A program made the translations under genes and the position numbers. Under the pieces are notes generated by a model. It made no database searches, was not told where the DNA came from, and was given only the letters and a program-made list of their open reading frames with translations. This document shows positions 51,859-62,706 of a stretch of DNA of 64,000 nt, in pieces; positions within the stretch are counted from its first letter, which is position 1, and every line of letters begins with the position of its first letter. The DNA comes from Chloroflexota bacterium (GTDB lineage Bacteria; Chloroflexota; UBA11872; UBA12225; JAJDUF01), in the NCBI GenBank assembly GCA_022826725.1, contig JAJDUF010000016.1, positions 372,001 to 436,000 of the forward strand, given 5' to 3'.

Positions 51859-53598
51859 CTACATAGCTTCGTCGCGTAGCTCATCCAGGCCGAGGAGCAG
51901 ACTCGCCGTCACCGCTGCCGTCCAATGGTAGTCGCGAATCGACCCTCCCCGCGAGCGGATGTCGTAGGGCTTCCTGATCGGCCCCTTCCGGTCGCAGGCC
52001 GGGGGCGGTGCCTCGTCTTTCGCATCATAGTACTCGAACAGGACGCCGTAGCACCGGTAGTACTTCTGCACGAGCTCGATTGACTTCTGCGCCAACCGGT
52101 CCGCCTCTTCGGTCCTCCCCTGCTTGGCCAAACCCCTGATGACGAAATAGTTGGCGTTCACCCAAGTTGGGCCGCGCCACATATCGGTGGACCATGCCGG
52201 GTCCGAGACAGCCACCGTGGGCACGGGATAGGCCGTGTCGAACAAGGTTGGGTCCCTGAGCGCCGCAACTAATCTGTCCACACGCTCCGGTGGCACGTCG
52301 TTCAATAAGAGCGGGTAGAAGCCACTGATGGCCTTGACGCGGATAAACCGCCCATCTAGCTCACGGTCGTAGTAGAAACCGTCCTCGTCGTGCCACAGCC
52401 TGCGATGCACCCGCGCGGCCATTGCCCTCGACCGCTGCGCCCAGCGACGCCCCTGCTCAACCTCTCCCAACTCCTCGGCAATGCGCGCCGTGTACTGCAT
52501 GTCGAGGGCCGCGTAGACCGAGAAATCCACGGCATCGAAGGGAACGGCCCGGTCGAAGCGTGGTGAGTTGTCCATGCCCGCTTCGCCGCCGCGGTACTTC
52601 TTGCCTTGTTCGAGAGACCATTCCAGCAGGCCATTCCCATCGCTATCCCGGTTCGCGCAGTCCCATTCCAGGTAGCGTTCGAGCCGCGGTAGCGCGTACT
52701 GCAAGCACGACTTGTCTTGCAAGGCCTCGTAGTTCTCCCAGACGCCCCAGGCCAGAATCGGCGGTTGAATGGCGCCGGGCCAGCTAGGGCCACGATGGGG
52801 CGTCATCTGGATGGGGATCATGCCGTCGGCCGTCTGGGTATCCAGGACCGATTTCAGGAAATCCCAGGAGAGCCTGGGGAACAGCCGGTTCATGCCAAAG
52901 GAGTGGAACACCGAGTCCCACAGCCACATGTGCCGGTGCGGCACCCGATCGGGAGTGGACCAGGTCTGCCGGATTGCCCCTTCTTTGGACAGCGTGTTGA
53001 CCCTCATCACGCTGAAGCATTTCCTGAGCAAACGATCCCTTTCAGGAGACTTGAGCGCCGGGACGTTCCGGTACGCAGCCAGCCGCTTTTGGACCTCGTC
53101 GCCGACCTCCAGCCCCATTCCTGCCTCGGCTCGCTGCCGGGCCTGCGCGACGGACTTTCCATACGAGAGCGCAAACCGTCCCCCGTGCTCGATCAGGGCG
53201 AGCACGTCCCGGTTCTGCTCGTCCTCGGAGAGCCGGAAGGGGCGTTGCCACGCCGCGACGGGGCCTGCTTCAATACCGAGTTGCAGCCGAGTAGCAGTGG
53301 GCGTAACTCCGATCAGGGTGTGCCAGTGGCTGAAGGCCAGGACAAGATCGCCCTGCGGTGTCTCCACACCCAGCACGTCGCCCGTGGCAATACGGGCCGC
53401 CCCCTCATGGCGCAGCTTGATGTCCAACAGCCGGCGCCGCGGGGTGTGAAAGAGCAGGCCGTATCGCGCGCGCGCCAACGTAGCCACAAACCCCGAGGAG
53501 ACGCTTGTTTCTCCGTCCATGCCGGAGAAGGCGAAGAGTGCTCCCTCGCCCCAAACGTCCGGGAGGTTCTTGATCCGCCGCGCTATATCGGCAAGCAC
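51859..53598 (-). CDS. GH63-type (alpha/alpha)6 glycosidase, mannosylglycerate-hydrolase-like
   Basis: A 579-aa protein with GH63/trehalase-like signatures: HMWLWDSVFHSFGMNRLFP, GMIPIQMTPHRGPSWPGAIQ, GNGLLEWSLEQGKKYRGGEA then GMDNSPRFDRAV (catalytic region), DMWRGPTWVNANYFVIRGLA and the C-terminal DIRSRGGSIRDYHWTAAV. Bacterial proteins of this form hydrolyse mannosylglycerate, glucosylglycerate or alpha-glucosides. GTG 53598 lies 10 bp after the stop of the phosphonoacetate-hydrolase-like gene, so the two are in one operon. The exact glycoside is unknown. Confidence 0.8.
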   Translation of the reverse strand: MLADIARRIKNLPDVWGEGALFAFSGMDGETSVSSGFVATLARARYGLLFHTPRRRLLDIKLRHEGAARIATGDVLGVETPQGDLVLAFSHWHTLIGVTPTATRLQLGIEAGPVAAWQRPFRLSEDEQNRDVLALIEHGGRFALSYGKSVAQARQRAEAGMGLEVGDEVQKRLAAYRNVPALKSPERDRLLRKCFSVMRVNTLSKEGAIRQTWSTPDRVPHRHMWLWDSVFHSFGMNRLFPRLSWDFLKSVLDTQTADGMIPIQMTPHRGPSWPGAIQPPILAWGVWENYEALQDKSCLQYALPRLERYLEWDCANRDSDGNGLLEWSLEQGKKYRGGEAGMDNSPRFDRAVPFDAVDFSVYAALDMQYTARIAEELGEVEQGRRWAQRSRAMAARVHRRLWHDEDGFYYDRELDGRFIRVKAISGFYPLLLNDVPPERVDRLVAALRDPTLFDTAYPVPTVAVSDPAWSTDMWRGPTWVNANYFVIRGLAKQGRTEEADRLAQKSIELVQKYYRCYGVLFEYYDAKDEAPPPACDRKGPIRKPYDIRSRGGSIRDYHWTAAVTASLLLGLDELRDEAM

Positions 53599-53607
53599 AG
53601 GCCCGCC

Positions 53608-54873
53608 CTAGACCACGACCCCGTTGATCGCATAGTCGAAGATTTCGTAGCTCTGGAGCGTGCCGCCGGCGGCCCGTGCAGCATACGCCTCGTTCAGCGG
53701 AGCGGACAGGATGAACGGCACGCGCCGCTCGGAAATACCGCCGTGCGAGCGCAGACGAAACCCTTGCAGAGCGGACAGGTCGTGCGCGGCCGCCGAGGTG
53801 CCGATAGCCGTGTCCGCTGTGGTGCTCACCGCCACGTCGCCCTCGCGGTCGGGCGGCAGGTCGAACGCCGCGCAGACCGCCGCTTTGCCGTAGACCGCCT
53901 CGATACCGGGCAGCTCCCGTGTCACGCGGATGACCGCCTCCGACGTGACCCCATCGTAACAGTAGACGCGCGCAAACCCGCCCAACGAGCCGTGATGCAC
54001 CACGTAGGGGTCGGTGATCGGCAAGATCACGCGCGTCCGGCCGGCCCCGAACTCGCCGTCGAGCACATCCTGGAGATAGATGACGTTCGGCGAGCCGTCC
54101 GGCCGCGACTTGTCGTTCATGCCGTGGTCGGCGGTGATGCCGACGACGGCGCCCAGCGCCGCCAGCCGCCCGAACGCATCGTCCAGCCGCGCGTAGAAGT
54201 CGTTGATCTCCGGCGTGCCGGGGGCGTACTTGTGCTGGATGTAGTCGGTCAGCGACAGGTACATCAGTTCGGGGCGATGGCGCTCCAACAGCTTGATGCC
54301 TGCTTCGAGCACAAAGAGCGATAGCTCGGCTGAATACACGTCGGGCAGCGGCCAGCCCACCAGGTCGAGCACCTGCTCGATGCCGTTCTCCTCGCGTGTG
54401 CATTGACCGGCCCGCTCCGACGAAAAGTTCATGCTGCCGCCGGCGATGTTGATGCCCCGGCCCAGCTGCCGGCGCAGCTTGTCTTTGGCCGTAATCGCCA
54501 CCACCCGCGCCCCGCGCTGCGAGAACTCCGCCAAGAGCGACTCGGAGCGCACGAATTCGGGGTCGTTCATCATCACCGCAGCGCCCGTGTCCGGGTCGAG
54601 GAAGTAGTTCCCGGAGATGCCGTGGACCGCCGGTGGGCTGCCGGTGACAATCGAGAGGTTGTTCGGGTTGGTCAGACTCGGCACGATGCCGTCGGCCACG
54701 GCGCCGAACCCCTGCGCCATAAAACGCTCGACGTTGGGGATGATGCCATCCCGCTCGGCCTGCTCGAAGTAGGCCGGATCGCCCCCGTCTATGCACACGA
54801 CGACTACCGGGCAGCGCGGCCAGCGGTAGGTCACGTCGTTCAGCGTCACGGCTCGGTTATCGGCTGCACTCAT
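53608..54873 (-). CDS. Phosphonoacetate-hydrolase-like alkaline phosphatase superfamily protein
   Basis: A 421-aa binuclear-zinc enzyme. Ligand positions are visible: Asp in VVVCIDGGDPAYF, nucleophile Thr in VPSLTNPNNLSIVTG, Asp/His in YLSLTDYIQHKYAPG, Asp-His in ITADHGMNDKS and His in LRSHGGISERRVPF. GISGNYFLDPDTG and ITAKDKLRRQLGRG are strongly reminiscent of phosphonoacetate hydrolase (PhnA), which splits phosphonoacetate to acetate and phosphate. No phosphonate transport or phnW/phnY gene is nearby; its neighbours are glycosidases, so the substrate may differ. Confidence 0.82.
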   Translation of the reverse strand: MSAADNRAVTLNDVTYRWPRCPVVVVCIDGGDPAYFEQAERDGIIPNVERFMAQGFGAVADGIVPSLTNPNNLSIVTGSPPAVHGISGNYFLDPDTGAAVMMNDPEFVRSESLLAEFSQRGARVVAITAKDKLRRQLGRGINIAGGSMNFSSERAGQCTREENGIEQVLDLVGWPLPDVYSAELSLFVLEAGIKLLERHRPELMYLSLTDYIQHKYAPGTPEINDFYARLDDAFGRLAALGAVVGITADHGMNDKSRPDGSPNVIYLQDVLDGEFGAGRTRVILPITDPYVVHHGSLGGFARVYCYDGVTSEAVIRVTRELPGIEAVYGKAAVCAAFDLPPDREGDVAVSTTADTAIGTSAAAHDLSALQGFRLRSHGGISERRVPFILSAPLNEAYAARAAGGTLQSYEIFDYAINGVVV

Positions 54874-54954
54874 AGTCCTCGCCCCTCACCACTGGATAGT
54901 GTCGCTCGCTGTCGGTTCATGCCAGCGTCCCCGCTCTGAGAGAACTTTGCATAA

Positions 54955-55022
54955 CCGTCATTCCCGCGAAAGCGGGAATCCATCCCGATCATCCTTGCAT
55001 CCTGAAAAATCCTGATTCAGAC
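54955..55022. repeat. dRS3-like palindrome with trailing ATCCTGAAAAATCCTGATTC motif
   Basis: CGTCATTCCCGCGAAAGCGG continuing GAATCCATCC (54955-54985), followed by TGCATCCTGAAAAATCCTGA and TTCAGACAATC (about 54995-55025). It lies between the Gfo/Idh/MocA gene and the phosphonoacetate-hydrolase-like gene. Confidence 0.8.
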
Positions 55023-55084
55023 AATCATCCCCCGCCGCAGGGGCATCCCTTGTGGCTGCCCAGTAGCCGCGGCACCAGCCGGCG

Positions 55085-56098
55085 CTACATCGGCCGGCGA
55101 CGACCACCTCGCCGGCCGACGGCGTGGATGCGCTCGACAAGCTCCATCGTCTTGGCTGCATCGGCGAAGTTGGTCAACGGCTGCCGGCCCTCCTTGATGC
55201 AGTCAATGAAGTGCCGGTTCTCGTGCCACTGTCCCTTCCAATGCAGCGGTTCATCACCCGGCGCGCCGCCCAAAGTGCCGAACTCCTGCGAGTCGTACAC
55301 CTCCGGCTCGCCGTTGTCCGCCACGATGTAGGACTCGCGGTCGGCATCCACGTAGGCGGTAATGCCCGGCCCGTGAAACTCGGCCCGGTAAATGCGTCGG
55401 CCGGTCGCGTAGCTGGATTGCAGAACGCCCACGGCCCCGCTACTGAAGGACACCAGCGCCGTGAACTCGTTCGGGGACGGGCCGGGCGCCCGGCGCGTGC
55501 GGACGTGCGCCGCGACGTGCTCGACCTCGCCGCCACAGAGGAAGCGCAGGTTGTCTACCGCGTGGCAGCCGTCCACGGTCAGGTTGTCAATCACACCTCC
55601 GTAGTGCCCGGCGTGCTGGCTCAGGTCGGTGGACTTGAGGAAGCTGACGGTCGCTTGCTGGATCGGTCCCCGCTCCTCGACCCGCCGTTTCAACGCGGTT
55701 TGTGCCGGAATGTGCCGGCGCTGAAAGCCGACGGCCGTCAGGCAGGAATGCTCCTCCGCAAAATAGGCCAGCATCTGCGCCTGATGCGCCGTCACGCACA
55801 GCGGTTTCTCCACGAACAGGTGCCGCCCTTGCTGCAGCACGGTGCTGGCCGGCTCGAAGAGGTCCTGGGGCGGCATGATGACGTACACGGCATCCGGGTC
55901 AACCTCGTCCAGCATCTTTCGGTAGTCGGAATAGACGCGCGGAATGCCCCAGCGCTCGGCGGTGGCCTGCGCCTTTTCGACAAACAGATCGCACGTCGCC
56001 GCCAGGTCTACGTCGGGCAGGCTGGCAACGGAGGGGTAGTGTACGCCGTTCGCCAAACCGCCGGCCCCGATAAACGCCACCCGTACTTTGTCCGCCAT
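55085..56098 (-). CDS. Gfo/Idh/MocA-family oxidoreductase
   Basis: A 337-aa two-domain dehydrogenase. N-terminal Rossmann motif KVRVAFIGAGGLANGVHYPS, then DAVYVIMPPQDLFEPA, and the family lysine in LFVEKPLCVTAHQAQML (EKP). The C-terminal domain carries GVIDNLTVDGCHAVDNLRFL, where the D-x3-H pair matches the catalytic histidine of inositol/glucose dehydrogenases. These enzymes oxidise sugars or inositols with NAD(P). AAAGGAG precedes ATG 56098. It is the first gene of a minus-strand series including the PhnA-like and glycosidase genes. Confidence 0.9.
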   Translation of the reverse strand: MADKVRVAFIGAGGLANGVHYPSVASLPDVDLAATCDLFVEKAQATAERWGIPRVYSDYRKMLDEVDPDAVYVIMPPQDLFEPASTVLQQGRHLFVEKPLCVTAHQAQMLAYFAEEHSCLTAVGFQRRHIPAQTALKRRVEERGPIQQATVSFLKSTDLSQHAGHYGGVIDNLTVDGCHAVDNLRFLCGGEVEHVAAHVRTRRAPGPSPNEFTALVSFSSGAVGVLQSSYATGRRIYRAEFHGPGITAYVDADRESYIVADNGEPEVYDSQEFGTLGGAPGDEPLHWKGQWHENRHFIDCIKEGRQPLTNFADAAKTMELVERIHAVGRRGGRRRPM

Positions 56099-56133
56099 TC
56101 GCCCCACTCCTTTCTCGATCCTGCCGGCCCTAT

Positions 56134-56309
56134 CCCGTCATTCCCGCGCAAGCGGGAATCTAGCATTGTAGAGGCGCAACATGTTGCACCCGTCCCTCGT
56201 CATTGCGGCTTTCGCCGCAATCCATGTCCACGCGGCTCCCTTCACTGCGGCTGCCGCCGCACTCCCCCTCTCTATCGCTCGGCGATGGAGAGGGGGCCGG
56301 AGGGTGAGG
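56134..56309. repeat. Cluster of four palindromic repeats
   Basis: In order: dRS3-like unit (56134-56161), GGCGCAACATGTTGCACC (56173-56190), CGTCATTGCGGCTTTCGCCG unit (56198-56228, same as 7904-7934) and a CCCCTCTC-type hairpin (56263-56309). It fills the space between the selenoprotein gene end and the Gfo/Idh/MocA start. Confidence 0.85.
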
Positions 56310-56324
56310 CCCACCACCACCGCC

Positions 56325-58013
56325 CTACCGCCACTCGTCAATCGAAACGCTGCGCTCGTAGGTACTGCTCATAATCCGCCAGTAGCCGTTCGTCTCGCCA
56401 CCGACCACCACCACCTGAATGTCCTCCAAGCGGAACATCGGGATCAGCTCGTCCTCCGCCGCCTTGAGCAGCGTCGCATACGGTTCCACGCCGTTCAGCG
56501 CCTGCGGATAGACGTAGTTCTGAATCAGTTGGTAGTCCCAGTACTCACCCGCGGGGAGCGTGGCATTCTCGTGAACCCATTGGATCAGCTTCTCCTTGGT
56601 GTCGAAGCCGCCCCGGTCCAGGAACTGCCGTGCCGTAATCGGGTCCAAGACCAGCGTCGGGGGACTGTGCGGATCCATGCCGCGCAGCAAGTTGATCACG
56701 TGCTCGCGCCAGTAGCGCTCGCGTAGTCCCAGGGTGAACGCGGTCGCCCGACACCCGCCGAACACACTCACCACGCTCTCGTCCGGCTGGAACCCATGCT
56801 GCACGTGGAACGGCACCCACGGACTCCCTTCCTCGTTCTCCGCAAAGGTGACGCTGTTGTAGGCGTAGTTGTTGCCCTGCGAGCCGAGATACGTGCGGCC
56901 CGGCTCCGACCCACCCTGCAAGTTCTGCGACAGCAAGCCGTAGGCGCGGCCAATGGTCGCGTTGGCGTGGTTGTATGGTCCCATCGCCCCCGTGCCCCAG
57001 TTCATCCCTAGCTCCGCGCGGATCGGCCCGTTCACGACGGCCATCGCCGCCATTGAGCTGGTCGTGCTACCCCGCGCACTGACGCCGCTCGCGGCCAGGG
57101 CCAAGATCACCGGGAAATACTCCGGCTTGGCACCGGCCATCACGGCATTGACGGCCACCTTTTCCACGGTGTATGCCCATGCCTCGCGCGTCGAAGTCGG
57201 GCGCATCTGACCGACCACCTCGTCGGGGCGACGGCTGGTCCCGGCCAGCATCGCCGCCACCCGCTCGTGCGTAGGGAGGATGATCGGCAGACGGTCGGTC
57301 CACTGATTGTCCAAGAACAGCTGATGCAGGTTGTCCTCGGTGTCCGGCTCCACCCACCGCGGCGTCGAGCGGTCGAAGCGGCCCGCCGTCTGCTCCTCCC
57401 GACTAAGCGGCCGGGTGAGCGCCGCGATGACATCGTCCATCACCGGCTGACCCGTCACCGGGCTGTTCCCGTCCACGTAGCCTCGTAGCTCCGTCGGTGA
57501 CTTGCCCATCACCGGCTGCGGGACGAAGACGAACCGCTGCTCCGGCATTCCTCGCGCGTAGGCCACCTGCTTGACCGCGCGCGTGAACGATTCGGTTTGG
57601 ATGGAGGCCGTCGGTACTCCATATTCGCTTTCGAGATTAATGCAATGCACGGCGACCGCCGGCGCACACGTACTTCAGTGGCCGACTCCCAGGATCACCG
57701 CGTCGGCCCGCTCCTTGATCTCGTCGAAGAGCGCCGGGTCGTCCTCCGTATACACGCCCGACTTGCTCGTAAACACCGTCTTGATCTGCGGCATCCGCTC
57801 CGCAAACCAAGCCTGCATCTGCTGGAGCAAGAGGTCGCCGTCGTCAAAGCGGCAGTCAACGAGATAGACCGTCTTGCCGTCCAAGCCATCGAGCCGCGGC
57901 GCCATCGCCAACGGCTTGATGGCCGGCGGGTACCCCCGCGGGTTCATCACTACTCGGCGCTGACTACCGCCGTCAGCCGCACTTCCGTTCGCCGGGATTA
58001 CCGTGTTGCTCAT
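56325..58013 (-). CDS. Probable selenoprotein (UGSC-like family): in-frame TGA at 57675-57677 read as selenocysteine
   Basis: Two ORFs in the same frame, 57675-58052 and 56325-57650, are separated only by one TGA. Read through, they make one 562-aa protein whose site is GVGH-U-STCAPAVAVHC, a redox-like U-x-x-C motif at residue 113. Upstream text is YLVDCRFDDGDLLLQQMQAW and VYTEDDPALFDEI; downstream is NLESEYGVPTASIQTESF, FVPQPVMGKSPTELRGYVDG, YFPVILALAASGV and SIDEWR. I recall the UGSC (seleno)protein family with this layout. ATG 58013 follows GGAGG by six bases. A SECIS-like hairpin follows the TGA. The alternatives are a pseudogene or two separate proteins. Confidence 0.75.
57646..57666 (-). 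promoter_or_regulatory. Bacterial SECIS-like hairpin after the TGA codon
   Basis: In the mRNA, bases 9-29 after UGA pair as UGCGC(C)GGC-GGUC-GCCGUGCA: eight pairs (one G-U), one bulged C, and a GGUC loop beginning 18 bases after the UGA. E. coli fdhF has GGUC at 19 bases after its UGA in a bulged stem. Position and loop agree with bacterial SECIS elements. Confidence 0.65.
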
Positions 58014-58095
58014 GCCGCACCTCCACGTTCCACCGGGCCGAGACGGCGCCACGCGCCGCTACTGATCCACGCCAAGCACCGCGCACGGCTTGGCG

Positions 58096-58404
58096 CGGCC
58101 AGCATACCACAGATGGCCGTGACTCCGGCCTCTTTATCCCCGCCGCGCCAGAGGGGGACGTGGGTTCCCGCTGGTGGGGGTACGACAGACGGTGGTCTCG
58201 CCTACCCGATCGCTTGTAGTCGGAAGCGTGCGGAGCACCCATTATGGAGATTTAACCGGCGGTTAGCCTACAGATATTCGCCCCGCACTATACTGCGGTC
58301 TGAGGGCCGGCGCGATGAGTCACCCAACGCATGATAGCCCGATCTTTGGACGGCCGGTCAGCGCGTCGCGGCCAGCACACCACAGATGGCCGTATACTTA
58401 ACCG
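58096..58404. repeat. Duplicated promoter/5'-end segment and short direct repeats
   Basis: 58253-58352 is about 80% identical to 59537-59634, the promoter and first codons of the dioxygenase gene, including CCCGCACTATACTGCGGTC. The copy even keeps ATGAGTCACCCAACGCATGA and a short reading frame (MSHPTHDSPIFGRPV) that ends at 58400. A 28-bp direct repeat, GCGGCCAGCATACCACAGAT (58097-58123) and GCGGCCAGCACACCACAGAT (58369-58396), flanks it. No other gene is seen in this 390-bp gap. Confidence 0.8.
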
Positions 58405-58416
58405 GTGAGACCTCCT

Positions 58417-59538
58417 ATGCCTGCGGATCGTAACGGGCACATTGGTGCCGGCAAGGTTCGGCCGCTACAACTGCCGCACGAGACTCAGGCGCTCGTCACG
58501 CTGCTCCGTGAAGTCTACGCCGATGCATCGGCGTGGCGACGGCAGCGCCTCGACGATGAGTTAGCTCTGCTCTCACGCTTGCGCCTCGCCTATCGGCTCG
58601 CGCGGCGGGTGCCACGGACACTGCCCCTGCCAAATGGCTGGGGGTGGCAGGACCCGCAAGGCCGGCTGGCCGGAGCCGTGCTGGTCCGGTCCCTGCGTCC
58701 CGACGACACAGTGCAGTTGATAGATCACCTGGCGGTTCGACCGACCGCGCGGCAACAGGGTATTGGCCGCCGCTTGCTGGCAGCGGCGCTGGGCGCCTTG
58801 CGGCGGCAGGGTGCCCTCGTAGCGACGCTGGAAGTCGAGCCGGACAACACCGTCGCCAGGAATCTATACGCAGCCGCCGGCTTCCGGGTGGTAGACGAGG
58901 CCCTGGACTTGCTCCAGCCCGCCACTTGGCGGCAAGCCGGCGATAGCCGCGCCGAGGGGCGCACCGAATTCGCGGTGCACCCCTATCGCCGCGCCGATTT
59001 TGCACCACTCCAGCGCCTCACCGACGCGGCAATCCCCTGGATACCCAGAACTACAGCCGACGGCCCGGTCGCCGCCGGAAGGCTACAAGCCGTGCGGACC
59101 GCAGCCATCCGCCGGCTCGTGGACCTGATCCGCGCCCAAGAGCGCCGCAGCTACGTTGTCACCGGGGCCGCCGGAGACCTGTTGGCATTTGCGGAGATCA
59201 CGCGAGCCAGCCGAAGCCCGGCAGCGTTGCTGAGGCTTGCTCCTCGCTATCACCGTCTCCGCTTGATTGGCACTCCGGACCTGCCGGCGACCGCAGCCAC
59301 CGCCCTACTCTCCGTCACGCTCGCCGCCTCCCGGCCGAGACCCGGCCGGCCGCGGCCCACCTTGACGACCGTCTCGGCACGGCATCCGACCTTGGTGCCG
59401 GCGCTCGAGCAAGTCGGGTTTATCCCCCGAGAAAAGCGTCATCGGTTGGCACTCGATCTCACCGCGCAGAAACCGGAATCGGTGCTGCAAGGCTACTCCC
59501 GGCCGGCGTGGTCGCGGCAGAGCTTCACGGAGCGTTAA
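58417..59538 (+). CDS. GNAT-family N-acetyltransferase with C-terminal GNAT-like half
   Basis: About 373 aa. The first half has the acetyl-CoA motif: LIDHLAVRPTARQQGIGRRL then LVATLEVEPDNTVARNLYAA and AGFRVVDE. The second half (about 180-360) repeats the general strand/helix pattern without a clear Q/RxxGxG motif, as in two-domain GNAT proteins where one half is inactive. GTG 58405 is an alternative start. The gene is flanked on both sides by copies of the dioxygenase promoter segment, so it may have been inserted or brought in by duplication. Substrate unknown. Confidence 0.8.
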   Translation: MPADRNGHIGAGKVRPLQLPHETQALVTLLREVYADASAWRRQRLDDELALLSRLRLAYRLARRVPRTLPLPNGWGWQDPQGRLAGAVLVRSLRPDDTVQLIDHLAVRPTARQQGIGRRLLAAALGALRRQGALVATLEVEPDNTVARNLYAAAGFRVVDEALDLLQPATWRQAGDSRAEGRTEFAVHPYRRADFAPLQRLTDAAIPWIPRTTADGPVAAGRLQAVRTAAIRRLVDLIRAQERRSYVVTGAAGDLLAFAEITRASRSPAALLRLAPRYHRLRLIGTPDLPATAATALLSVTLAASRPRPGRPRPTLTTVSARHPTLVPALEQVGFIPREKRHRLALDLTAQKPESVLQGYSRPAWSRQSFTER

Positions 59539-59597
59539 CCGGCGGTTAGCCTACGGATACTCGTCCCGCACTATACTGCGGTCGGAGGACAAGCGCG
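59537..59597 (+). promoter_or_regulatory. Putative promoter of the intradiol dioxygenase gene
   Basis: TTAGCC...GCACTATACTGCGG contains TATACT as a likely -10 box (about 59570-59575), and GTCGGAGGACAAGCGCG supplies a GGAGG ribosome site before ATG 59598. The same box is kept in the upstream duplicate at 58285-58300. Confidence 0.5.
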
Positions 59598-60416
59598 ATG
59601 AGTATTCCAACGCACGACAGCCCACTCTTTGTGCCACCGCGCCGCGGCCTGCCGGACGGCGAGCAGCCAAGAATGAACCGGCGTGACGACCTGCTGCGGA
59701 GCCTTGGGGCGGCCGGCTCACTGGCTCTGCTCGGGTGTCGTGACCTCCTTACACCCGAGACGCAAGTCGCTGGCGGTGCCATTTCCCCAACCGCCGTACC
59801 GGTCGCGGCCGGCAGCCAAGCACCCGCCAATCCACCCCCCGCGTGTGTCCTGACGCCCCGGCAGACGGAAGGCCCGTTCTACTTCGATCCCAAGCAAATC
59901 CGGCGCAACATCACCGAGGGACGGCCCGGCACGCCCTTACAAGTAGCCCTTCAAGTCGTCGAAGCCGGCACGTGTCGCCCGATCCAGGATGCACTGGTGG
60001 ATATCTGGCACGCGGATGTAGCCGGCGTCTATTCCGGCTACGCTCGTCAGGGCGAGCGAGGGGATGCGGACGCCTCGGGCGAGACGTTTCTCCGCGGCAG
60101 CCAGATCACCGCTGCGAACGGCATGGTCGAGTTCGAGTCCATCTATCCCGGCTGGTATCCCGGTCGCGCCGTGCATATCCACTTCAAGGTGCGCTTTGCC
60201 AACCGGACCGCGGTGACGTCACAGCTGTACTTTCCGGACGAGGTGACGGATCGGGCCTACGCCGCGGCACCATACAACCAGCGCCCCCAGGGTTGGACGA
60301 CCAACGCGACGGACGGCGTGCTCCGCGGCTCCCCGGAAGACCAAAGCCTGCTCGCGGTGGTTGCTCCGGCCGGCGCCGGTTACCAGGCGTCGCTCACCAT
60401 CGGCATCGCTCCCTGA
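59598..60416 (+). CDS. Exported intradiol ring-cleavage dioxygenase-like protein
   Basis: A 272-aa protein with an N-terminal basic stretch and helix ending in a lipobox-like LALLGC (about residue 47; MNRRDDLLRSLGAAGSLALLG resembles a Tat/lipoprotein leader, and Met26 is an alternative start). The intradiol dioxygenase core follows: TPRQTEGPFYFDP, VDIWHADVAGVYSGY (first Fe-ligand Tyr), SIYPGWYPGRAVHIHFKVRF (Tyr and two His ligands). Cytoplasmic relatives cleave catechol or protocatechuate; exported ones are often linked to aromatic or humic substrates. Substrate unknown. Confidence 0.87.
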   Translation: MSIPTHDSPLFVPPRRGLPDGEQPRMNRRDDLLRSLGAAGSLALLGCRDLLTPETQVAGGAISPTAVPVAAGSQAPANPPPACVLTPRQTEGPFYFDPKQIRRNITEGRPGTPLQVALQVVEAGTCRPIQDALVDIWHADVAGVYSGYARQGERGDADASGETFLRGSQITAANGMVEFESIYPGWYPGRAVHIHFKVRFANRTAVTSQLYFPDEVTDRAYAAAPYNQRPQGWTTNATDGVLRGSPEDQSLLAVVAPAGAGYQASLTIGIAP

Positions 60417-60445
60417 GCGACCGCCTTGCATCCGGTGCCGGGCCG

Positions 60446-61669
60446 TCAGGAATCATCCGCGGCGACCACGCCCTCATTCTGCACGCGCTCGTAAAGGCGC
60501 TCGAACTCCGGCGAGCCGTCCTCTTCCCACAGCTCGACCCGGAGACCCCGGATCGTCCCTTCCTCATAGCCCGTCAACCGGCTCACCGACGGGAACCTCG
60601 GCGTGTAGAGCGTGTGGCCGCCGGGCAGGCGCAACACCGACACGTAGCGCCGGAACACCGTGGGTTCGCGGGCCGCAACACGCTCCAGGGCCACTTCATC
60701 AACCTCCACGCCCAACCCCGGCGCTTCCGGTACCGGTGAGTAGCCCTCGATCACCGGAATACGCTCCGTCGTGATGTCCTCCTCGTATTGGTCGTCGAGG
60801 TTGATCGAGTGGCCGACTGTCGGGAGCACCGCGGCCAGATGCAGGCCCAACGCCTTGGTCAGCGTGCCGCCGGTGAGCTGCACGATAGTCTGAATGTTGG
60901 CCTGGCCGTAGGCCATGCCGCGGACCAGCGCATCGCCGATACCGGCCTCCCCCACCATGTAGGCGTCGGCAACGCCCTGGAAAACTTCCTGTAGCCCGCC
61001 GAGCGGCGGTACGTGCATGATGAGCGGTATGCGCGTCTGCGCGCGGAGACGCTGCCAGCTTTCCAAGTCCCGGCGGACGAGCGGGTCCTCGATAAAGCCC
61101 ACGATCGGGTGGTTGTCTTCCAACGCCCGGATCGTCGGCAGGACGGCGGCCAAGGTGCGGTTGCCGTTGAAGTCGTAATGCAGCCGGAAGCCCGGCGGCG
61201 CGACTTCCTCCACGACCCGAGTCTGCTCCATCACGTCGTGGATCTCCGCAGTGTGCATCTTGAAGATCGTGTAGCCCTGCGCGATAGCTCGCTGGACCTC
61301 CTCGCGGAACTGCGCTGGCGCAGCGGGCCGGGTCCACGCGGCGACGGCAACGCCGTCGCGCACCTTCTGCCCCATCAGCTTGTAGGCCGGTACCCCCAGA
61401 TACTTCCCCATCACGTCATACAGGGCACCGCAGAGGCCGGGGTTGAAGTCATTGTTGATGAAGTCGAACGGGCTACAACCGATCAGCGGCTCGACCATAG
61501 ACCGCGCCGGCGCCGGGCAGCGGTAGTCGCCGTAGCCGGTCACTCCTGCATCGGTCTGAACACGAAATACCGTGCGTCGGTTGATTCCGCCAAACCGCAC
61601 CTGATATTGCTCATTGCGGGCAGCAATACGGGGATAGATCGGAATGATCTCGATAGCGGTAATCTTCAT
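60446..61669 (-). CDS. Mandelate racemase/muconate lactonising enzyme family protein (enolase superfamily)
   Basis: A 407-aa protein with the capping domain (MKITAIEIIPIYPRI, VFRVQTDAGVTGYGDY) and a (beta/alpha)7 barrel: FKMHTAEIHDVMEQ, metal ligands likely in LHYDFNGNRT (Asp), GFIEDPLVRRD (Glu-Asp) and a later position near YMVGEAGIGDA. It lacks the canonical KxK at the second strand (IFKMH instead), so it is a variant subgroup. Such enzymes dehydrate or racemise sugar acids. ATG 61669 follows GGGAGGAGCG; the ORF extension to 62011 is rejected. Substrate unknown. Confidence 0.87.
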   Translation of the reverse strand: MKITAIEIIPIYPRIAARNEQYQVRFGGINRRTVFRVQTDAGVTGYGDYRCPAPARSMVEPLIGCSPFDFINNDFNPGLCGALYDVMGKYLGVPAYKLMGQKVRDGVAVAAWTRPAAPAQFREEVQRAIAQGYTIFKMHTAEIHDVMEQTRVVEEVAPPGFRLHYDFNGNRTLAAVLPTIRALEDNHPIVGFIEDPLVRRDLESWQRLRAQTRIPLIMHVPPLGGLQEVFQGVADAYMVGEAGIGDALVRGMAYGQANIQTIVQLTGGTLTKALGLHLAAVLPTVGHSINLDDQYEEDITTERIPVIEGYSPVPEAPGLGVEVDEVALERVAAREPTVFRRYVSVLRLPGGHTLYTPRFPSVSRLTGYEEGTIRGLRVELWEEDGSPEFERLYERVQNEGVVAADDS

Positions 61670-61856
61670 CGGCACGCTCCTCCCGGCAAGACGCGAACTG
61701 GACACCGGGCACGTAGGTATGATCGCCAGTGTGACCGCAGCATAACACGGCAGCCAAATCCAAGCCTGGTGTACGGCCGGTACTCTATACTGCTCTCGCC
61801 GGGCCCTGGCGGTGTTGGAGTGCGCCTGGCCCCCCGCTCCGCGGGGCGACGAGTTG

Positions 61857-61899
61857 TTCCCTCCCCTGTCGCAACGGGGGAGGACGATGGTAGGGGCTA
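61857..61899. repeat. CCCTCCCC-type hairpin upstream of creatininase
   Basis: TCCCTCCCCTGTCGCAACGG then GGGAGGACGATGGTAGGGGC, preceded by CCCCCGCTCCGCGGGGCGAC (61831-61850). It belongs with the blocks at 18330, 34093 and 34621. Confidence 0.75.
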
Positions 61900-61926
61900 T
61901 ACGATACACACGGGGAAGGAGCAAAC

Positions 61927-62706
61927 ATGCGCGAGCAAGAGATTCGCCTGGAAAAGCTGACTCGTCGGGAGTTCCGCACGGCCCTCGCCGCTGACCACTA
62001 CCAGGTAGCAATCCTGCCTACCGGGAGTATAGAGCAGCACCTGGAGCATCTGGCGTTGGAGCAGGACATCGTATCGAGCACCTACGTCGCGGAGCAGGTA
62101 GCGGAGCGGCTCTATCCCAACGTGATCGTCGCGGTGCCCATAGCCATCGGTATTGCCGAGCATCACATGGGGTTCGCCGGCACCCTCTCCGCCCGCCCCG
62201 GTAGCTGGCTGGCCGTGCTTTTCGACGCGGTAGAAAGCCTCGTCCGGCACGGCGTTCGCAAGGTGCTCATCATCAACGGTCACGGCGGCAACGTGGCCGT
62301 GATCCGCAGCGCCCTCCCCCAATGGCAGCTCTACTTCCGCAACGCACACGTGGAGCAGCCGGAGTTCGGCGACGAGGTAGCCGGCTTCTCGCACGGCGAC
62401 TACAACCGGCGCGTGCAGGAGGCAGCGCAAGCGCCCGTTGACCTGCGCTCGTGCAGCTATTGGGACCTCATCCCGCGCGACTTCGCCAATGAGGTGCTGG
62501 AGACGGGGAGTATGCCCGGCCACGCGCAGGAGTTCGAGACCTCCGTGACGATGCATGCGTTTCCGGAGAACCTGCGGCCGGAAGCGATGGTCTACAACAC
62601 CAGCCCCAACAGTGCCAAAGCGACCGGCGAGAAGGGCCGCGTGCTTATCGAACGGGGCATCGAAGGGGGCATTGCGCTGGTCCAGGAGATGCTCGCGGGA
62701 CCCTAA
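61927..62706 (+). CDS. Creatininase-family amidohydrolase
   Basis: A 259-aa creatininase fold protein. Metal ligands appear as Glu/His in LPTGSIEQHLEHLALEQD (with the Asp), His in AIGIAEHHMGFAGTLS, NGHGGNVAVI, and Glu in PGHAQEFETSVTMH. The family includes creatinine amidohydrolase, FAPy deformylase and MftE-like proteases; no mycofactocin genes are nearby. GGGAAGGAGC precedes the ATG. It is divergent from the enolase-superfamily gene, and both fit a catabolic locus. Substrate unknown. Confidence 0.9.
   Translation: MREQEIRLEKLTRREFRTALAADHYQVAILPTGSIEQHLEHLALEQDIVSSTYVAEQVAERLYPNVIVAVPIAIGIAEHHMGFAGTLSARPGSWLAVLFDAVESLVRHGVRKVLIINGHGGNVAVIRSALPQWQLYFRNAHVEQPEFGDEVAGFSHGDYNRRVQEAAQAPVDLRSCSYWDLIPRDFANEVLETGSMPGHAQEFETSVTMHAFPENLRPEAMVYNTSPNSAKATGEKGRVLIERGIEGGIALVQEMLAGP

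Follow-up and report, generated by a model that had tools for sequence, protein, structure and literature searches.

Gene structure and UGA site

By its sequence, the minus-strand interval 58013..56325 of the window, meaning the whole 64,000-nucleotide (nt) stretch of Chloroflexota bacterium contig JAJDUF010000016.1 that was analyzed, is one selenoprotein gene and not two broken ones. Its product is probably a GrdB/PrdB-like two-domain selenoenzyme linked to the thioredoxin system, with selenocysteine (Sec) at UGA codon 113 and a partner domain for the substrate. Translation of the interval gave 562 residues with a single internal TGA and a terminal stop codon. The TGA stands at residue 113 in the context VILGVGH-U-STC-APAVAVHC, with the Cys of the USTC motif at residue 116. 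In the Pfam search, each half by itself matched UGSC (36.7 and 37.3 bits), and translation through the TGA raised the score to 92.4 bits over residues 22-180; the match therefore crosses the TGA. A preliminary description of the window had given the gene coordinates correctly, with the TGA taken into its 57675-58013 piece, and had rightly placed the TGA three residues before a Cys. Its proposal of a 562-residue read-through selenoprotein is supported by TGA in 53/53 loci, a signal resembling a selenocysteine insertion sequence (SECIS), Cys orthologues and the Sec machinery of the genome. The features of the gene are as follows.

56325..58013, minus strand: USTC selenoprotein gene; 562 codons, ATG start, stop codon 56327-56325 (translation with TGA as U; full-length homologues).
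57675..57677, minus strand: in-frame UGA, predicted to be read as Sec, residue 113 (TGA in 53/53 loci; TGC in 5/5 Neorhizobium orthologues).
57645..57667, minus strand: SECIS-like hairpin that follows closely after the UGA, its core CGGC-GGUC-GCCG spanning 57661-57650.
57474..57950, minus strand: UGSC (PF24696) redox domain, residues 22-180, containing USTC; GrdB/PrdB-like (Pfam 92.4 bits; hhalign).
56328..57458, minus strand: C-terminal partner domain, residues 186-562 (a related domain is joined to UGSC or encoded beside it).
58019..58024, minus strand: Shine-Dalgarno-like GGAGGT, 5 nt ahead of the ATG at 58013 (read directly).

Conservation of the TGA codon and cysteine orthologues

Genome contigs were scanned with six peptide patterns, none of which overlaps the TGA, so that its conservation is not built into the scan. 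The 55 loci found, nearly all from metagenome-assembled genomes (MAGs), fall into nine phyla by their record titles, which name Chloroflexi (many Caldilineaceae), Latescibacterota, Rokubacteria, Binatia, Methylomirabilota, Deltaproteobacteria, Syntrophobacter, Betaproteobacteria, and Acidobacteria; the scan reaches close relatives only, and the plasmid Cys orthologues are not among its matches. TGA was present in all 53 loci spanning the site. Two loci (L056 and L060) do not extend to it, and two others (L058 and L061) match in two pieces, the frame being lost farther downstream. The best segments were 46-98% identical to the window protein with the frame kept past the TGA, and a gene in another MAG (L007, 98% identical) likewise has TGA. 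USTC is the motif in the window and 52 of the 53 loci, with UPGC in the most distant one (L059, 46% identity); a literal U-G-S-C was found in neither the window protein nor the 53 loci. Mean column identity was 74% in alignment A1 (39 rows, the window and 38 of the 55 loci); A4 comprised the window and 30 of the 55 loci, and A3 the 31 distinct 42-nt sequences among 54.

In a tblastn search of the plasmid collection, 24 records were matched and 19 examined (H12 and four unlisted records were left out). The codon at the site was TGC/TGT in 15, TGA in three, and ATG in one, the relatives with a Cys codon being seven haloarchaea, five Neorhizobium, two Actinomycetes, and one Variovorax. All five Neorhizobium orthologues cover 96% of the query (61.7-62.8% identity) and have CSTC with the codon TGC; one of them (L184) is split across two frames. 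In a 73-row tree, rooted at the midpoint and with several forks open, four Neorhizobium rows formed a single clade (support 100/100) inside a 60-row group of USTC rows and L059 that is Sec-bearing throughout except for this clade. For two plasmid UGSC genes with TGA, on Paracoccus ferrooxidans pFER4 (L190) and Acidovorax p2-T1 (L193), the PLSDB gene table, which is incomplete, gives pieces or lacks a part. A selB gene lies about 3 kb from the UGSC gene on the Paracoccus plasmid.

Within the phylum, PF24696 was present in 41 of the 400 genomes sampled. TGA occupied the site in 128 of 132 rows from the UGSC profile search, a set from which two further rows with a gap at the site were dropped and in which the TGA rows include three GrdB-type genes (L112, L113, and L125) and several loci counted twice under two ids. 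The four other rows read CWGT, TRSG, and MGVT, plus a poor, truncated match (L149). Cys forms were thus rare among the phylum loci examined and prevalent among the plasmid relatives examined.

Selenocysteine machinery in the genome

Matches above the family cut-offs were found in the genome for selB (321 bits), selA (560 bits), selD (370 bits), and tRNA-Sec (74.5 bits). Two of the checks named in the preliminary description, for homologues with Cys at residue 113 and for the Sec machinery, turned out in its favor, the former through CSTC in 5/5 Neorhizobium orthologues and the latter through all four components, selA, selB, selD, and tRNA-Sec. The selD gene (L078, G000:C21:153762-154700) is interrupted by one in-frame TGA and is therefore probably a selenoprotein gene itself. 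UGSC occurs a single time in this genome. The genome also has a GrdB-type gene (L117, G000:C20:220106-221143) with a TGA directly after its PF07355 match (UGTC), probably encoding another selenoprotein and adjoining a GrdE/PrdA-type gene (L205, C20:218626-219804).

SECIS-like hairpin

Codons were compared in 55 rows, the window and 54 loci with the 98%-identical L007 excluded, and four-fold degenerate sites were taken where the amino acid was at least 90% conserved (n = 120). Residues 117-121, directly after USTC, hold the five least variable wobble positions of the 120 (third bases Ala G 51/52, Pro G 52/52, Ala G 53/53, Val C 53/53, and Ala C 53/53), as against a median entropy of 1.29 bits. 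Because substitutions at these bases would leave the protein unaltered, and Ala is held at GCG in one place and at GCC in another, protein selection or codon preference explain this wobble freeze poorly.

The apical stem CGGC/GCCG with the loop GGUC was invariant in 31/31 distinct rows. The SECIS of Escherichia coli fdhF likewise has the loop GGUC. Below a bulge, five more pairs were less conserved, three of which were altered on both sides, each in a single row, L059. The RNAalifold consensus retained the four apical pairs only, with the covariation term absent. In Neorhizobium, the codons for residues 117-121 are GCA/GCG, CCA/CCG/CCT, GCC, GTC, and ACC; the hairpin is lost and the protein motif retained, with a best energy over the same 42 nt of -4.5 to -6.7 kcal/mol versus -12.8 kcal/mol. 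Its conservation and its loss in Cys orthologues suggest that codons 117-121 form a hairpin as a bacterial SECIS would.

Membership in the UGSC family

The preliminary description had called the protein related to UGSC with the motif USTC, and this wording proved accurate, since the protein matches PF24696 (92.4 bits, gathering cut-off 25 bits) and scores 74.7 bits with NF041046, below the equivalog cut-off of 125 bits. UGSC and one UGSC fusion were published in 2008; that paper ranks UGSC among the selenoprotein families met most often in samples from oceans and fresh water, counts 255 Sec versus 21 Cys forms among Global Ocean Sampling (GOS) sequences, and mentions a fusion of a UGSC selenoprotein with a conserved domain of unknown function named Unknown_1 (PMC2398784, Figure S1A). 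Four other papers, in the portions available, list UGSC and assign it no specific function (PMC13188914, PMC9312934, PMC5029168, and PMC7435645). The string USTC in the available part of PMC7435645 is a web address and not the motif. Among openly accessible main texts, none of the titles listed was about a USTC selenocysteine motif, and no link was found between UGSC and glycine reductase in the available parts of those naming both.

The window protein thus represents a diverged branch of a family already described, for which a fusion is also on record. It shares with UGSC (PF24696 and NF041046) the homologous Sec domain, the UxxC motif, and, from the counts in the available literature, a predominance of Sec over Cys forms; it differs in having USTC, in scoring below the NF041046 cut-off, and in being fused to the partner. 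The UGSC/Unknown_1 fusion likewise joins a conserved domain to UGSC and probably has the same architecture, whereas USTC, the constant pairing, and a thioredoxin reductase (TrxR) neighbor are not described in the available portions of PMC2398784. New here are the USTC subfamily, the profile kinship to GrdB/PrdB, the near-constant partner, and the TrxR-like gene downstream in part of the family. The partner domain, the GrdB/PrdB kinship, the TrxR-like neighbor in relatives, and the SECIS signal are all absent from the preliminary description. Up to eight UGSC matches, split and fused, occurred per Chloroflexota genome (eight each in G122 and G137, seven in G312), and seven or eight in one genome suggest several substrates.

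Kinship to GrdB/PrdB and fold

PF07355 ends just before the UxxC motif, and the GrdB genes were therefore extended downstream and compared anew. The GrdB-type genes of the phylum, extended in this way, had U/C-x-x-C or a variant at the matching place. With hhalign, 71 UGSC-type rows (13 of them USTC) matched 19 extended GrdB/PrdB-type rows at 97.0% probability (E 8.6e-11) and 39 USTC-family rows at 93.0% (E 3.5e-7), the E-values being for a single pair and not a database and the aligned stretch covering about 73 columns. Masking of the UxxC tract left 93.5% for the 71 rows and 51.6% for the 39 rows. In the comparison with the extended genes, subsets gave 64.4, 83.0, 96.1, and 92.4%. Eight controls, pairing these two sets with GrdE, TrxR, the partner of all, and the partner of USTC, gave 0.1-24.1%. 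TIGR04483 (PrdB) matched three of 39 members (best E 0.0011), the window protein not among them, and the UGSC profile also matched the GrdB-type genes L112, L113, and L125 at E up to 1e-3. As judged from these profiles, the link to GrdB/PrdB is remote homology in the redox domain and not membership.

In the structural model, residues 48-164 alternate between strands and helices, with five strands and the UxxC behind the third, and may be read as Rossmann/flavodoxin-like. A full-length fold search of PDB gave weak mixed matches with TM to the query of at most 0.18 (NagZ, lumazine synthase, serine hydroxymethyltransferase, and others), and thioredoxin was not among the 50 matches listed. Searches of solved structures with P0001 and with the GrdB of the same genome (346 residues, up to UxxC) as queries returned no matches. 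The protein resembles GrdB (PF07355) and PrdB (TIGR04483) in the Sec-x-x-Cys or variant behind a strand ending 'DAVxL'-like and in the profile match of the redox half, and is unlike them in having no PF07355 match and a partner domain without GrdE/PrdA kinship.

C-terminal partner domain

Residues 181-562 matched no Pfam family at E up to 1. The domain is probably the Unknown_1 of the 2008 paper (PMC2398784). A profile of residues 186-562, with at most four candidates scored per genome, matched 41 of the 400 phylum genomes, 40 of which also matched UGSC; G251 had UGSC only and G073 the partner only. In the 75 UGSC rows (78 rows for loci L082-L171 less three GrdB-type ones, some loci present twice), the partner was fused in 28, just downstream in 21, just upstream in 17, far in three, and not found in six, of which one is truncated and others have short flanks. 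A non-fused partner lay within 600 nt on the same strand in 38 of the 75. That the two are fused in one order and yet occur as separate genes in either order points strongly to a single enzyme.

Among 90 partner sequences, D240, N351, R356, and E392 (window numbering) were conserved. The Cys of a partner MAGC motif was present in 64 of 72 other UGSC partners and replaced by Ala in 10 of 13 USTC rows. A relationship of the partner to class I fumarase/CyuA (best Foldseek E 3.2e-3, TM about 0.25, pLDDT 74) was not used, and five CD40-ligand chains matched by the partner profile among solved structures (E 0.46-0.51) were taken as chance.

Thioredoxin reductase neighbors and gene context

Of the 50 distinct USTC loci whose downstream sequence reached 1 kb or more, 11 have a TrxR-like gene on the same strand no farther than about 230 nt downstream. 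These 11 come from Chloroflexota, Binatia, Deltaproteobacteria, Syntrophobacter, and Betaproteobacteria; the Caldilineaceae and Rokubacteria loci of the set yielded none. At L015 the USTC and TrxR-like frames overlap by 4 nt, and a TrxR-like gene also stands behind one short UGSC gene (L085). The flavoprotein beside these relatives is of the TrxR type, the three neighbors run against Pfam matching Pyr_redox_2; it is a neighbor in relatives, not the USTC gene itself, and is not adjacent in the window. An Arthrobacter plasmid has the order trxB-trxA-partner-UGSC, and on a Haloterrigena plasmid UGSC and partner are followed by a gene annotated as NAD(P)/FAD-dependent oxidoreductase.

Other neighbors of plasmid UGSC genes (L187, L188, L189, L199, and L184) include genes for CoA transferases, hydroxymethylglutaryl-CoA (HMG-CoA) lyase, DUF6282, and a TRAP transporter as well as malonyl-CoA genes, with phosphosulfolactate synthase near UGSC in L187 and L189. 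In Neorhizobium, the malonyl-CoA genes directly precede the UGSC-type gene on its upstream side. These plasmid neighbors hint at organic-acid breakdown. In the window, the genes at 51859-62706 matched MGH1-like glycoside hydrolase, type I phosphodiesterase, Gfo/Idh oxidoreductase, GNAT, dioxygenase C domain, enolase superfamily, and creatininase in Pfam, with no obvious selenoprotein link.

Alternative explanations

That the TGA is a genuine stop, in a pseudogene or through a sequencing error, was given almost no weight: it has in its favor only the general rule that TGA ends translation, and annotation cuts up genes of this kind, as on the Paracoccus and Acidovorax plasmids; against it stand the TGA in 53/53 loci, the frame conserved beyond it at 46-98% identity, and the wobble freeze directly after it. 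Equally negligible is the production of two separate proteins by a stop and re-initiation as in split relatives, for which a GTG start is available at 57650 and for which the many relatives with UGSC and partner as separate genes may be cited; the UGSC frame of those split relatives ends about 79-108 residues past U, behind the UGSC domain and not at the active site, whereas the TGA of the window falls inside the Pfam domain. An open frame alone cannot distinguish Sec from another amino acid (Cys or Trp) inserted at UGA with no selenium; the complete Sec machinery and the SECIS-like signal, lost in Cys orthologues, make this very improbable. A general thiol oxidoreductase or antioxidant of thioredoxin-like fold, as supposed for UGSC in the 2008 paper (PMC2398784), would also suit the UxxC motif and the TrxR neighbors. 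It is nonetheless unlikely, as residues 48-164 of the model are read as Rossmann/flavodoxin-like with thioredoxin not among the 50 PDB matches listed, the redox domain matches the GrdB/PrdB profile, and a conserved partner domain of such size speaks for a specific substrate.

Several observations weigh against the preferred reading of a thioredoxin-linked, GrdB/PrdB-like selenoenzyme. The window protein has no PF07355 match at E up to 1, and hhalign against GrdB cut at the PF07355 end gave no match (0.4, 1.6, 16.5, and 0.6-0.7%), which confines the basis of the kinship to some 70-90 columns surrounding the motif. The partner was rejected as GrdE/PrdA (PF09338), with a probability of 0.2-0.4% against 12 of 16 PF09338 matches. 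No TrxR-like gene was found in the examined sequence of 39 of the 50 USTC loci; the next gene in the window encodes the Gfo/Idh oxidoreductase and not TrxR, the best TrxR match of the genome (35% identity) is on another contig, and a flavin oxidoreductase adjoins UGSC or lies within two genes of it in only four of 13 annotated plasmid loci (L186, L189, L191, and L200). Among the five lower pairs of the hairpin, three are unpaired in 9/31 rows and one in 18/31, and the stability of the hairpin does not exceed that of dinucleotide shuffles (z 0.09); in a region this rich in GC, the SECIS argument is carried by conservation, not stability. A few relatives have no Sec/Cys pair at the site, namely, L133 (8678) with TRSG, L134 with MGVT, L132 with CWGT, and L191 with MGTS. 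The TRSG copy adjoins an ordinary UGSC copy.

Proposed mechanism and significance

In the enzyme as proposed, SelB and tRNA-Sec would decode UGA 113 as Sec, guided by the hairpin overlapping the next codons, for which the case is strong. Sec113 and Cys116 would form a pair of selenol and thiol that closely follows a beta strand, in an N-terminal domain predicted to alternate strands and helices, and their layout would be that of the GrdB/PrdB UxxC, to which the profiles point. The C-terminal domain, nearly always paired with UGSC, would make up the other half of the enzyme and is probably where the substrate binds. Sec113 may attack or reduce the substrate, whereupon an Se-S bond with Cys116 would form, and a TrxR-type flavoprotein, as suggested by gene neighbors in relatives, would restore the selenol/thiol pair directly or via thioredoxin. 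Glycine reductase receives its electrons from the thioredoxin system. The substrate broken down may be a small organic acid, as the neighbors in some relatives suggest.

Comparison with its relatives suggests that the enzyme is remotely akin to the glycine and proline reductases of bacteria and is not a simple antioxidant. There is about an even chance that UGSC/USTC proteins with their constant partner, fed by a TrxR-type flavoprotein, constitute an undescribed two-part class of selenoreductases in the GrdB/PrdB superfamily, active in small-organic-acid breakdown in many bacterial phyla and with a Cys form in haloarchaea and rhizobia. Such a class, if real, would add a third branch to those of glycine and proline reductase, set apart by its substrate subunit. 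The ties to GrdB/PrdB, to the partner and, in part of the family, to TrxR make a 'Trx-like' UGSC protein a testable enzyme, and the CSTC form of the culturable Neorhizobium galegae and the trxB-trxA-partner-UGSC operon of Arthrobacter would allow such tests without selenocysteine expression.
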